NCBI RefSeq assembly: GCF_028292965.1
Contig: NZ_JAQGLG010000007.1
Span: forward strand, 1 to 47,014
Reading direction: 5' to 3'
Source: Sphingomonas bacterium
Lineage (GTDB): Bacteria; Pseudomonadota; Alphaproteobacteria; Sphingomonadales; Sphingomonadaceae
Length of the DNA stretch: 47,014 nucleotides
The translations under genes and the position numbers were made by a program. Below the pieces are notes generated by a model. It searched no databases. It was not told the DNA's origin and worked only from the letters and a program-made list of their open reading frames with translations. Shown piece by piece: positions 2,445 through 26,932 of the stretch; positions within the stretch are counted from its first letter, which is position 1, and each line of letters begins with the position of its first letter.

Positions 2445-2739
2445 GCTGCGTACCGCGCTCGCGGCGCGGGAGGACGTGCGCGGGATACGCGACTACAACA
2501 AAACCGCATTCGGGGCGCGTGTCGCGAGGGACTATCTGGACGGTTTGATCGCTGTTTTCGCGCTGATCGAGGCGCGTCCATTGGCTGGTGTCGCCGAGCC
2601 GGCTCTGGGCCAGGGCATGCGCAGCTTCGGATTCCGATCGCACCGGATTTACTACAAGCTCGAAGGCGAAGATCTGTTGGTGGTACGCATACTCCATAAC
2701 GCGCAGCACATCCCGGAAGCGTTTGGATCGAGCCAGTGA
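2437..2739 (+). CDS. Type II toxin, ParE/RelE superfamily
   Basis: The 100-aa protein has the ParE-like start ([20 protein letters not shown]), a central basic segment ([28 protein letters not shown]) and the C-terminal [10 protein letters not shown]. ParE toxins typically poison DNA gyrase, whereas RelE relatives cleave mRNA; the sequence alone does not separate these. The start is GTG at 2437, inside the antitoxin 3' end. The stop TGA (2737-2739) overlaps the ruvB GTG by 4 nt, so ruvB translation may depend on ribosomes finishing the toxin. Confidence 0.85.
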
Positions 2740-3758
2740 CCGACGACGATCGCCTCCTCACCCCCGCCCGCCGCAGCGAAGATGTCGACGCCGCGCTGCG
2801 CCCCAAGAGCCTCGACGATTTCGTCGGGCAGAAGGCGGCGCGCGAGAATCTGCGTGTGTTCATCGCCGCGGCCAAATCGCGCGGCGATGCGCTCGATCAT
2901 GTGCTGTTCTTCGGCCCACCCGGGCTCGGCAAGACGACGCTGGCGCAGATCGTCGCGCGCGAGATGGGGGTGGGGTTCCGCGCCACCTCGGGCCCGGTCA
3001 TCGCCAAGTCGGGCGATCTTGCCGCCTTGCTGACCAATCTCGAGGATGGCGATGTGCTGTTCATCGACGAGATCCACCGCCTACAGCCGGCGGTCGAGGA
3101 AGTGCTGTACCCCGCGATGGAGGATCGCGCGCTCGACCTGATGATCGGCGAGGGGCCATCGGCGCGCTCGGTGCGGATCGATCTGCCGCGCTTCACGCTG
3201 ATCGGCGCGACGACGCGGCAGGGCCTGCTGACCACGCCGCTGCGCGATCGTTTCGGCATTCCGGTGCGGCTTCATTTCTATACCGTCGACGAACTGGAGC
3301 GCGTCGTATCGCGCGCCGCCTCGCTGCTCGATCTCGCCATCTCGCCTGACGGCGCGAAGGAGATTGCACGGCGCGCGCGCGGCACGCCACGTATCGCCGG
3401 GCGACTGCTGCGCCGGGTGCGCGATTTCGCCCATGCCGCCGGGCATGAATTGGTCGATGCCGCCGCCGCCGATGCCGCGCTCAACCGGCTCGAAGTCGAC
3501 GGGCTCGGCCTGGACGCGATGGACCGGCGTTACCTGACGATGATCGCCGATATCTATCGCGGCGGTCCGGTCGGGGTGGAGACGCTCGCCGCGGGCTTGA
3601 GCGAGCCACGCGACACGGTCGAGGAAGTGATCGAGCCTTATCTCATCCAGCTCGGCCTGATCGCCCGCACGGCGCGCGGGCGCTGCCTCAATGCCGGCGG
3701 GTGGAAGCATCTCGGCCTCAATCCGCCCGCCTCGACGCAGGACGAGCTGTTCGACTGA
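2736..3758 (+). CDS. ruvB: Holliday junction branch migration helicase RuvB
   Basis: RuvB is the AAA+ hexameric motor that drives branch migration with RuvA. The 340-aa protein has Walker A GPPGLGKT (60-67), Walker [10 protein letters not shown] (106-114), sensor 1 GATT (157-160) and the arginine finger in TPLRDRFG (R170). A C-terminal winged-helix DNA-binding domain ends it ([29 protein letters not shown] in pieces). All key residues are intact, so this is the working copy. It uses GTG, overlapping the toxin stop, whereas the truncated copy upstream has ATG. No separate promoter is evident between toxin and ruvB, so expression probably comes from ruvA-side read-through, the toxin-antitoxin promoter, or both. 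Confidence 0.97.
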
Positions 3759-3856
3759 CGGTCGATCGCACGAGGTGATTCAATCGTGCAGCGCCGGCGG
3801 GCACACTGCCGCCATGTCCCCCTGTCGCCCCGCTCATGATCGTCGCGCCGCCCCAG

Positions 3857-4138
3857 ACCTGCGCGCCTCCAACATTGCAGGTACCTGTTCCACCTGCTCG
3901 CCGCCTGCTGGCGACCTGCTCGGCCACCTGCTCTTGCACCTGTTAAGTTGGAGAAATCGCTGGCGCGCATTGTCGCCAAACCGATGATAAATTACGGAAA
4001 GCTGCGGTCAGTGCCCCGCGCGGTGACCGTCAAAAAAAGCGTTTACCTGCAAAAGCAGGTGGGAGCAGGTGAATCGGCATCCAACATCGTCGCCACCTTG
4101 CGCCCCGTATCTGTGCGGTGCGTACTTTTCTTTACCTG
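3857..4138. repeat. Cluster of ACCTG/CAGGT motifs in the ruvB-ptsP gap
   Basis: The 432-nt gap 3759-4190 has no convincing gene. It contains ACCTG-type pentamers at 3857, 3883, 3892, 3903 (GCCTG), 3914, 3926 and 3938. The last six are spaced 9, 11, 11, 12 and 12 nt, about one helical turn. Further on are the perfect hairpin ACCTGC-AAAA-GCAGGT (4045-4060), another GCAGGT (4065-4070) and ACCTG at 4134. Phased short sites suggest cooperative protein binding, or a degenerate 12-bp tandem repeat. Function is unknown. Confidence 0.6.
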
Positions 4139-4190
4139 TCTCAACCGTCACAGCGTAGCGATGCTGCGCAACATCTGTTAGCTCCGCCTC

Positions 4191-6458
4191 ATGCCTGCCG
4201 CCGCCTCTTCCGCCCGCGAAATCCTCGTCCGGCTGCACGACGTGATGGCGTCGCGCACCGCCGCGCAAGCGAAGCTCAACGCGGTGGTCGGGATCGTTGG
4301 CGAGGCGATGCACAGCGAGGTGTGCTCGATCTACCTGCTGCGCGACGGCGAGCTCGAACTCTATGCCACGCGCGGCCTGGCGCAGGAGGCCGTGCACGTC
4401 ACCAAGCTCGCACTGGGCGAAGGGCTGGTCGGGACGATCGCCAAGGATGGCGACGTGCTCAACCTCGACGAGGCGACCAGCCACCCCGACTTCGCCTATA
4501 AGCCCGAGACGGGTGAGGAGAAGTTCCACAGTTTCGCCGGTGTGCCGATTATCCGGCGCGAGCGGGTGATCGGTGTGCTCGCGGTGCAGCATGCCGACCC
4601 GTATAAGTACGACGATGTCGAGATCGAGGCGCTGCAGACCGTGGCGATGGTGCTGAGCGAGTTGATCGCCAATGCCGAGCTCGCCGACGGCCATGGCACT
4701 GCCGCGGCGCGCCCGCAATCGACCGCCGCGGTGCGTATTCCCGGGCTCAAGCTGGTCGAGGGCATGGGCAGCGGTTACGCCGTCTATCATCAGCCGCGCA
4801 TCACCATCGAGCACACCGTCGCCGAGGATACCGAGGCCGAGCGTGCGCGGCTCTATGCCGCGTTCGGCAAGATGCGCGAGCAGATCGACCGCATGGCACA
4901 ACAGGCCGAGTTCGGCGTCGGCGGCGAGCACGACGAGATCCTCGAAATGTACAAGATGTTCGCCTATGACGAGGGCTGGTCGCGGCGCATCAACGAGGCG
5001 ATCGATTCCGGCCTGACCGCGGAAGCCGCAATCGAGCGCGTGCAGCAGCGCACCCGCACGCGGATGCGCCAGATCGACGATCCGTTGCTTGCCGATCGCA
5101 TGCACGATCTGGAGGATTTGTCGAACCGGCTGCTGCGCATCGTCTCGGGCCAGATGGGTACTGCGGCGCAGCTTGGTCTCCGCCAGGACACGATCCTCAT
5201 CGCGCGCAATCTCGGGCCGGCCGAACTGCTCGAATATGATCGCCGCCGGTTGAAGGGCGTGGTGCTGGAGGAGGGCTCGCTCACCGCGCATGTCACGATC
5301 GTGGCGCGGGCGATGGGCGTGCCGGTGCTCGGCCGCGTCAAGGGCGTGCGCCGCGCGATCGCCGAGGGCGACCTGCTGCTGCTCGACGTCACCGAGGGGA
5401 ATGTTTTCGTCCGCCCGTCCAACGCCATGGCCGAGGCGTTCGACGCCCGCGCCGCGGTGCGCCAGAAACGCCGCGCCGCCTATGCCGCGCTCAAGGGCGA
5501 GGTGCCCTTCACCAAGGACGGCCACCGCGTCACGGTGATGGTCAATGCCGGCCTGCGCGACGACATCGCCGCGCTCGATGTGACCGGTGCCGACGGCATC
5601 GGCCTGTTCCGCACCGAATTCCAGTTCCTCGTCTCGGCCACCCTGCCGGCGCGCGAGCGGCAGCAGCGGCTCTACAAGGACGTGCTCGACGCCGCCGGCG
5701 ACCGGCCGGTGGTGTTCCGCACCGTCGATATCGGCGGCGACAAGGCGCTGCCCTATCTCGCCCAGGACGATAATGACGAGAACCCGGCAATGGGCTGGCG
5801 CGCGCTGCGCCTCGCGCTCGGGCGTGCCGGGCTGATGAAGGTGCAGGCGCGCGCGTTGCTGGAAGCGGCGGCGGGAAAGACGCTCAACGTGATGTTCCCG
5901 ATGGTGTCGGAAGCCTGGGAGCTGGACGAGGCGCGCGCCCTGTTCGAGGCGCAGCGCGCCTATCTCGCCGAGCGCAGTCGCAAGCTGCCGGTCGAAATCC
6001 GTTATGGCGCGATGCTGGAAGTGCCGGCGCTCGCCGAGCAGCTCGATTTGTTGCTGCCGAACATCGATTTCCTCTCGGTCGGCACCAACGACCTGACCCA
6101 GTTCCTGTTCGCCGCCGACCGCGCCAATCCCAAGCTGGCGGAGCGTTACGACTGGCTCAGCCCGTCGATCCTGCGCTTTCTCGCCCGCGTGGTGGCGCCG
6201 TGCCGCGCGGCGAATGTGCAGCTCGCGGTGTGCGGCGAGATGGGCGGCCGGCCGCTGGAGGCGATGGCGCTGATCGGGTTGGGGATCGACCGTCTGTCGA
6301 TTACCCCGGCCGCGGTCGGGCCGATCAAGGCGATGGTCCGCACGCTCGATCGTGCCACATTGATGACGTGGATGGAGGGGCTGCTCGCCGCGCCGCCACG
6401 CGACATGCGCGGCGCGCTGGCGGGCTGGGCGGCGCAATCGGGCGTCGAACTGGCGTGA
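4191..6458 (+). CDS. ptsP: PEP-protein phosphotransferase PtsP (nitrogen PTS enzyme I)
   Basis: The protein transfers phosphate from phosphoenolpyruvate to an HPr/NPr protein at the head of the regulatory nitrogen PTS. The 755-aa product has an N-terminal GAF domain (about 15-160; VVGIVGEAMHSEVCSIYLL to LQTVAMVLSELIANAELA). The enzyme I domains follow: the swivelling phosphohistidine segment GSLTAHVTIVARAMG (His367) and the PEP-binding barrel with GADGIGLFRTEF, the arginine-containing MGWRALRLAL, VGTNDLTQF and a late CGEMGGRPL motif. Length is normal for GAF-containing PtsP. It is cytoplasmic. ATG 4191 is preceded by the unusual motif cluster, which is a candidate for its regulation. Confidence 0.93.
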   Translation: MPAAASSAREILVRLHDVMASRTAAQAKLNAVVGIVGEAMHSEVCSIYLLRDGELELYATRGLAQEAVHVTKLALGEGLVGTIAKDGDVLNLDEATSHPDFAYKPETGEEKFHSFAGVPIIRRERVIGVLAVQHADPYKYDDVEIEALQTVAMVLSELIANAELADGHGTAAARPQSTAAVRIPGLKLVEGMGSGYAVYHQPRITIEHTVAEDTEAERARLYAAFGKMREQIDRMAQQAEFGVGGEHDEILEMYKMFAYDEGWSRRINEAIDSGLTAEAAIERVQQRTRTRMRQIDDPLLADRMHDLEDLSNRLLRIVSGQMGTAAQLGLRQDTILIARNLGPAELLEYDRRRLKGVVLEEGSLTAHVTIVARAMGVPVLGRVKGVRRAIAEGDLLLLDVTEGNVFVRPSNAMAEAFDARAAVRQKRRAAYAALKGEVPFTKDGHRVTVMVNAGLRDDIAALDVTGADGIGLFRTEFQFLVSATLPARERQQRLYKDVLDAAGDRPVVFRTVDIGGDKALPYLAQDDNDENPAMGWRALRLALGRAGLMKVQARALLEAAAGKTLNVMFPMVSEAWELDEARALFEAQRAYLAERSRKLPVEIRYGAMLEVPALAEQLDLLLPNIDFLSVGTNDLTQFLFAADRANPKLAERYDWLSPSILRFLARVVAPCRAANVQLAVCGEMGGRPLEAMALIGLGIDRLSITPAAVGPIKAMVRTLDRATLMTWMEGLLAAPPRDMRGALAGWAAQSGVELA

Positions 6459-22407: not shown

Positions 22408-22587
22408 GAAGAAGATTTTGTTCGCGCGGAGACGCGGAGGCGCGGAGATGGTGCGCGCCGGGCCGCCGCCAGGCGCTATCACAAGCCGGGTGCGGCGGGC
22501 GATGTGAATGGTTGGCTGGCGCCCCGATTGCCGCAGGCGCAACCCCTCCGCGCCTCCGCGTCTCCGCGCGAACAAATCTCTTCTTTT
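22408..22587. repeat. MITE-like inverted-repeat element (best-preserved copy)
   Basis: The left arm includes TTCGCGCGGAGACGCGGAGG (from 22421) flanked by AGAAGATTTTG. The right arm is its inverted complement, including CCTCCGCGTCTCCGCGCGAA (22553-22572) flanked by CAAATCTCTTCTTTT. Arms are about 40 nt around about 95 nt. The interior contains GGGCGATGTGAATGGTTGGC, also found in inverted orientation in the copy at 26745-26932. It lies between convergent genes. Confidence 0.85.
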
Positions 22588-26744: not shown

Positions 26745-26932
26745 AGAAAAGAAAATTTGGTTCGCGCGGAGACGCGGAGACGCGGAGCGGTCGCGCATGT
26801 GGCGATGACGGCGTCAGCCAATCAATCACATCGCCCGTCGCACGCCGCCTCTGTTGGCGCGGAGCGCCTTCCCGGCACGCAACATCTCCGCGCCTCCGCG
26901 TCTCCGCGCGAACAAATCCCCTCTTTTTCTTC
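26745..26932. repeat. MITE-like inverted-repeat element (third complete copy)
   Basis: The left arm includes TTCGCGCGGAGACGCGGAGA (from 26761) and the right arm CCTCCGCGTCTCCGCGCGAA (26893-26912), with A/T-rich outer ends (AGAAAAGAAAATTTG; CAAATCCCCTCTTTTTCT). Its interior matches the copy at 22408 in the opposite orientation (CACATCGCCCGTCG). It lies between convergent genes. Confidence 0.85.

Follow-up and report, generated by a model that had tools for sequence, protein, structure and literature searches.

What is an array of closely spaced ACCTG words doing in the gene-free gap upstream of ptsP? In the window (the whole 47,014-nucleotide stretch of Sphingomonas DNA that we analysed), this gap is 432 nt long, between one open reading frame ending at 3758 and another starting at 4191. 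The initial annotation had reported a dense ACCTG cluster there and had proposed, among other explanations, an operator of ptsP or a decaying 12-bp tandem repeat. The cluster itself is clear: the 282-nt stretch from 3857 holds 11 ACCTG/CAGGT sites, the next densest 282-nt stretch elsewhere in the window holds 3, and the maximum per stretch in 200 first-order simulations was 5. The window contains the word ACCTGC 45 times, whereas shuffles gave 20.4 ± 4.4. We found that the array belongs to a non-coding element, roughly 300 bp long, that is dispersed among intergenic sites and has one copy in this gap. Its parts are listed below, with the orientation named after the ACCTG array and with the edges set from the copies in another genome of the genus, G153, where the homologous stretch opens with GATTCAA and closes with the last inverted unit.

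2736-3758, plus strand: upstream open reading frame, which we take to be ruvB
3777-4071, plus strand: whole dispersed element, about 295 bp (edges by eye, by analogy with the G153 copies)
3777-3783, plus strand: GATTCAA, left edge, 18 nt past the ruvB stop codon
3830-3842, plus strand: right half of the left module, decayed (CCGCTCATGATCG; family form CGCTCTTTCTCATG...; by eye)
3868-3882, minus strand: TCCAACATTGCAGGT, inverted unit with TCCAAC, mirroring the last array unit and its GTTGGA
3883-3942, plus strand: helically phased array of five ACCTG units and one GCCTG unit, 9-12 nt apart
3938-3952, plus strand: last array unit with its recurrent tail, ACCTGTTAAGTTGGA
3953-4031, no strand: spacer, sequence not conserved (by eye)
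4032-4071, minus strand: right module (A-run, 4032-4038; hairpin, 4045-4060; inverted CAGGT unit, 4066-4070)
4191-6458, plus strand: downstream open reading frame, ptsP (named as in the initial annotation)

The six ACCTG-like sites described at 9-12 nt are present as the forward units, which start at 3883, 3892, 3903 (GCCTG), 3914, 3926, and 3938 (spacings of 9, 11, 11, 12, and 12). A further forward site of the ACCTG/CAGGT type lies at 3857, and ahead of the array an inverted CAGGT (3878) with TCCAAC (3868) forms the mirror image of the GTTGGA behind it. The perfect ACCTGC-AAAA-GCAGGT hairpin occupies 4045-4060. The two sites reported nearer to the gene also exist, CAGGT at 4066 and ACCTG at 4134; the latter falls outside the element and may be a chance occurrence. 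The true start is earlier than had been annotated, at the GATTCAA at 3777. In the orthologous copy of the genome G259, the parts keep their order and the ACCTGC core is retained, so that a conserved core does exist in a relative, but three CAGGT units stand in place of the perfect hairpin. The main DNA matches of 24 relatives of the same genus start at 4165 or later in the window, outside the element. Elsewhere in the window, at 110-133, 22425-22448, 22545-22569, 26765-26787, and 26886-26909, short arrays of an 8-bp CCTCCGCG/CGCGGAGA unit belong to a different repeat.

Dispersal was observed in the genome of the window itself (G000), where a search for three spaced ACCTG words gave 18 matches on nine contigs, the window included, and none with the reversed control; a DNA similarity search also placed pieces of the array and the right module at further sites. 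The copies share one architecture: a left module (GATTCAA...GCTCTTTC) is followed by arrayed XXCTG[T/C]T units, a spacer, and a right module of inverted units. In detail, the common layout is GATTCAA, about 55 nt, GCTCTTTCTCAT, tens of nucleotides, the array of about three to eight forward units, the spacer of nearly constant length, an A-rich stretch, and two or three inverted units; another inverted unit usually adjoins the last forward unit. The suggestion that the array is only a decaying 12-bp tandem repeat was rejected, because it accounts neither for the matching inverted units nor for the layout shared at many loci.

Exact copies of the left module number 13 to 105 in nine of 295 genomes of the genus (G000, 17; G048, 105; G049, 40; G128, 14; G129, 14; G153, 78; G254, 19; G259, 13; G281, 18) and 0 to 2 in the remaining 286, and the reversed control gave none in any of the nine carriers. 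The exact pattern misses the window copy, because the right half of its left module, including GCTCTTTC, has decayed. The three-unit ACCTG pattern alone is unspecific, with at least one match in 172 of the 295 genomes and an equally frequent reversed control in some; G000 (18 matches) and G153 (19) stand out, and the matches listed from other genomes are mostly of the kind expected in genes. A stricter module pattern found 35 stretches in a collection of 84,980 species, 28 of them in Sphingomonas or an unnamed bin-596 (Sphingomonas sp. ERG5, 15; AR_OL41, 6; QA11, 2; bin RYN_525, 1; bin-596, 4). To judge from identical module sequences, AR_OL41, RYN_525, and bin-596 appear to be G259, G254, and G281 or their near relatives. 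The other seven stretches, scattered over other or unplaced organisms, and 13 single or double hits of the genome counts were treated as chance and make up the 20 loci with a match to the module pattern that were set aside. Four pattern matches in viral contigs had no array by eye, and a viral origin was rejected. A PtsP tree was built from 17 genomes (27 were tried and ten had no usable row); in it, the nine carriers group together, which requires one change, with weak branch support (76/70).

Individual copies have discrete edges. Among 12 copies of G153 aligned by eye, ten start with GATTCAA and one with GGTTCAA, the start being absent in L116; homology stops at the last inverted unit, except in L098 and L121, which have a common second element behind it. 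We examined 30 of the 47 right-module matches in G048 (rows L412 and L413 are one place). The nearest left module lies 205-290 nt upstream and is exact in 19, mismatched in ten (counted without a chance control), and half present in one. Since all 30 have a left module of one of these kinds upstream, no cargo-bearing copy was seen, and no cargo gene was seen in any of them. For 76 of the 151 catalogued modules, no array of three units follows within 260 nt, and among these is a second type of element with palindromes upstream of GATTCAA. At L259, L260, L263, and L269 of G048, the palindromes upstream of the left module are AGATATG...CATATCT, sometimes two or three in tandem; arms of GTTAC/GTAAC and of GGGAC/GTCCC, changed together, also occur. 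One copy in Sphingomonas sp. ERG5 (L155) contains a long GGCTTCC tandem repeat downstream of the left module. By eye and with no background count, several copies (L153, L146, L161, L150) have a GANTC site after the last inverted unit, and GATTC forms the left edge. GANTC is the methylation site of CcrM.

The helical phasing proposed for the window holds for the family, where it is far stronger than in the window copy alone. A first set comprised 42 elements; in the larger set of 75 of the 151 modules, each with at least three forward units, 223 of 224 consecutive spacings lie near multiples of 10.5 bp, although these spacings are not independent because the elements share descent. The spacings cluster at 9-13, 20-23, 31-33, and 41-44, the sole outlier is 34, and the period that fits best is 10.55 bp (resultant, 0.91). 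Because of its decayed left module, the window copy falls outside this set of 75. Neighbouring single spacings compensate each other (r = -0.575 for 80 pairs, never reached in 5000 permutations), and 51 of the 80 pairs sum to 22. The forward units thus lie on one face of the DNA, as expected of a helix-phased protein-binding array, and since phasing holds across the family and neighbouring spacings are anti-correlated, an array of protein sites is a fair reading. Measured from the last forward unit, 121 of 157 distances to the far inverted units fall at 77-80, 104-109, or 115-119 nt, which fit 9.65 bp better than 10.5 bp; the array and the right module are therefore not simply on one face, and such phasing between them was not found.

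The units also carry a core, the two bases before CTG, which the forward and inverted units of one element tend to share: 108 of 175 inverted sites match the core of their own array, whereas 5000 permutations averaged 29.5 and never exceeded 56. The cores found are GG, CC, TG, TC, and CG in G048; AC, TG, and CC in G153; and AC, CT, and CG in G000. We compared G048 with G153 or G000 at loci whose two flanks match and whose arrays can be scored; the cores differ in seven of seven such comparisons. In G153 and G048, respectively, they are AC and TG at L113/L324, L166/L308, and mutS (L117/L278), AC and CC at L114/L301, and TG and GG at L160/L249 and L184/L265. The seventh is L050/L385 of G000 and G048 (AC and CC), where the G048 copy consists of only two forward and two inverted units. 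Three pairs without a scorable array (L165/L365, L162/L368, and L148/L264 of G153/G048) were excluded. In position-matched elements, ACCTG in G153 corresponds to ATGCTG in G048, and ATGCTG in G153 to TGGCTG in G048, in the array and the inverted units alike. Closer pairs have equal cores (G000 and G259, matched on both flanks at the window locus, AC; G128 and G129, matched on one flank, CC). An equal core, TG, was also seen in one match between G048 and G153 on one flank, L372 with the second element of L109.

Of six pairs scored at matched loci, two or three have clearly similar left modules (percentiles of 99.4, 99.6, and 96.2; the others, 74, 48, and 16), and for the remaining pairs independent insertion into the same gap is consequently possible. 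One of the six, L109/L372, rests on one flank, and L109 has a second, TG-core element that pairs with L372. A trans-acting system might keep the unit word uniform within a subfamily and switch it between species, through a family of paralogous binders whose DNA specificity drifts along with their many sites or by templated rewriting in place; we put this forward as a speculative and rather doubtful proposal. In the gap upstream of mutS (L275, L277, L278, L289, L291), we observed elements of different type or core in G049, G153, G048, and G128/G129, and no element by eye in G022, G281, and G014.

We regard it as probable that the element is a dispersed repeat of intergenic DNA, non-autonomous and belonging to one Sphingomonas clade, that serves as a scaffold for a putative helix-phased DNA-binding protein. 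The phased units would be bound side by side by this protein, which may be architectural or may be a transposase-like factor that formerly spread the element in trans, and the inverted units would close the putative protein-DNA complex. The uniform core within a copy could arise by repeat-templated correction or by selection for the putative binder. No effect on ptsP need be invoked.

A possible but less likely alternative is a purely selfish or neutral MITE-like repeat without present function, in which the phasing and the uniform cores are relics of copying. The empty sites, subfamilies, and composite copies agree with it, as does the preference for the 3' side of genes, which has been reported for other repeats (PMC3049150). 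Compensating spacings, however, are not expected from relics alone, and the cores differ between species while the positions are kept. The element does resemble MITEs in being short, non-coding, non-autonomous, and dispersed, with discrete edges and empty orthologous sites; it may differ in its ends, as neither a terminal inverted repeat nor a target duplication was seen by eye at element edges or empty sites, in copies that look old, and no parent transposase or other autonomous partner was seen.

The gene context could instead point to RNA. For 76 of 86 modules (ten were dropped because their flanks were too short), the raw counts, which carry no genome-wide orientation baseline, are 36 between convergent, 29 between tandem, and 11 between divergent genes. 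A structured 3'-end RNA or bidirectional terminator, with units that pair in the transcripts of the flanking genes and cores kept matched by pairing, would suit the 36 convergent locations, the matching forward and inverted cores, and the hairpins that two facing units form in many copies. We consider this unlikely. A scan of 3700-4260 gave two terminator sites, both at 4106-4125 and outside the element, and RNA pairing does not require the direct repeats to be phased at 10.5 bp. Stems before GCTCTTTC average 5.8 pairs against 5.1 in shuffles, a slight excess, and were too weak to be kept as a conserved feature. No Rfam match at eight loci came near its gathering score: the 13 matches up to E = 1, in L139 and L109, are all far below, mostly to miRNA models and several on both strands, and L012, the locus of the window copy, gave none. 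The scan of 3700-4260 also showed one promoter-like site on the minus strand, 4011-3984, within the spacer. In L139 (G000), the stretches 721-821 and 1358-1486, near a CTCTG-core element, are probably long inverted repeats, because miRNA models match both of their strands.

Returning to the dispersed repeat as a protein scaffold, one of the closest likenesses among known systems is the BOX element of Streptococcus pneumoniae. According to its description, BOX is an intergenic repeat composed of outer modules that enclose tandem units in varying number, its novel insertions are now slow, and, like RUP and SPRITE, it is over-represented between convergent genes (PMC3049150). The present element likewise combines outer modules with variable inner tandem units, is intergenic, and exists in many copies. 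Here, in contrast, the inner units are 9-13 bp long, in helical phase, and matched by inverted counterparts in the right module, and the core differs between elements; the likeness is one of architecture, with no pneumococcal sequence compared. As for slow insertion, the modules in about 341 kb aligned between G128 and G129 (95.7% identical), two in each, are common to both genomes, and no insertion difference was seen there; there is thus no sign of present movement.

REP/BIME repeats offer a second comparison. The CGTC-tagged REPs of alphaproteobacteria, of which Sphingomonas wittichii CGTC-1 is one example, are intergenic, lie mainly between unidirectional and convergent genes and near gene 3' ends, and reportedly have no transposase flanked by CGTC repeats (PMC3733652). 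These points are shared. REPs, however, are tagged palindromes of 20-40 bp, whereas the Sphingomonas element is about 300 bp long with an array and two modules, and its unit, by which we judged it rather than by tags, is a direct repeat of 9-13 bp and not a GTAG or CGTC palindrome. We considered it very unlikely, and rejected it, that the element is a REP mobilised by a RAYT, an IS200-type Y1 transposase that in the GTAG type is flanked by repeats. Y1_Tnp genes occur in eight of the nine carriers, but G048, the genome with the most copies, has none, and not one of the 19 Y1 loci, examined with at most about 1.5 kb on each side, contains the module. One Y1 locus, L193, has a three-unit ACCTG array. 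The best reading from these comparisons is that the family probably represents BOX/REP-like modular intergenic repeats of one Sphingomonas clade. Among the titles and abstract openings listed on dispersed intergenic repeats of Sphingomonas and Sphingomonadales and on concerted evolution, with few subscription journals included, none describes the element.

The history of the ruvB-ptsP gap can be read from its relatives. The element is present between ruvB and ptsP in G000 and G259 (stop codon 474 and 480 nt before the anchor), G259 being the sole other genome seen with it there, and absent with ruvB directly before ptsP in G254, G128, G129, G022, and G049 (120-241 nt); a different gene precedes ptsP in G048, G153, G281, and G014. 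Insertion probably occurred in an ancestor of G000 and G259. The flanks of L114 are similarly uninterrupted in G049 and G128 and interrupted by the element in G153 and G048. A cooperative operator of a ptsP regulator is hardly credible: phased sites do stand upstream of ptsP in G000 and G259, but the same element lies at unrelated loci, most often between convergent genes, the sites are not conserved upstream of ptsP in relatives (none before ptsP in seven of the nine carriers, four of these with ruvB still adjacent, by eye), and relatives that lack the element match the DNA immediately ahead of ptsP, so the operator was rejected on the empty sites and the dispersal.

With the phased, dispersed repeat as our preferred explanation, a local cluster becomes a family of elements spread over the genome, whose 10.5-bp phasing is a physical property open to testing. 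The evolution of the family is unusual in that the repeated word is common within a copy and different at matched positions between species. If a cognate protein exists, the matched loci would let one follow, in a natural experiment, how such a protein and its many binding sites evolve jointly; if there is none, they would show intergenic DNA rewritten by repeat-templated correction.
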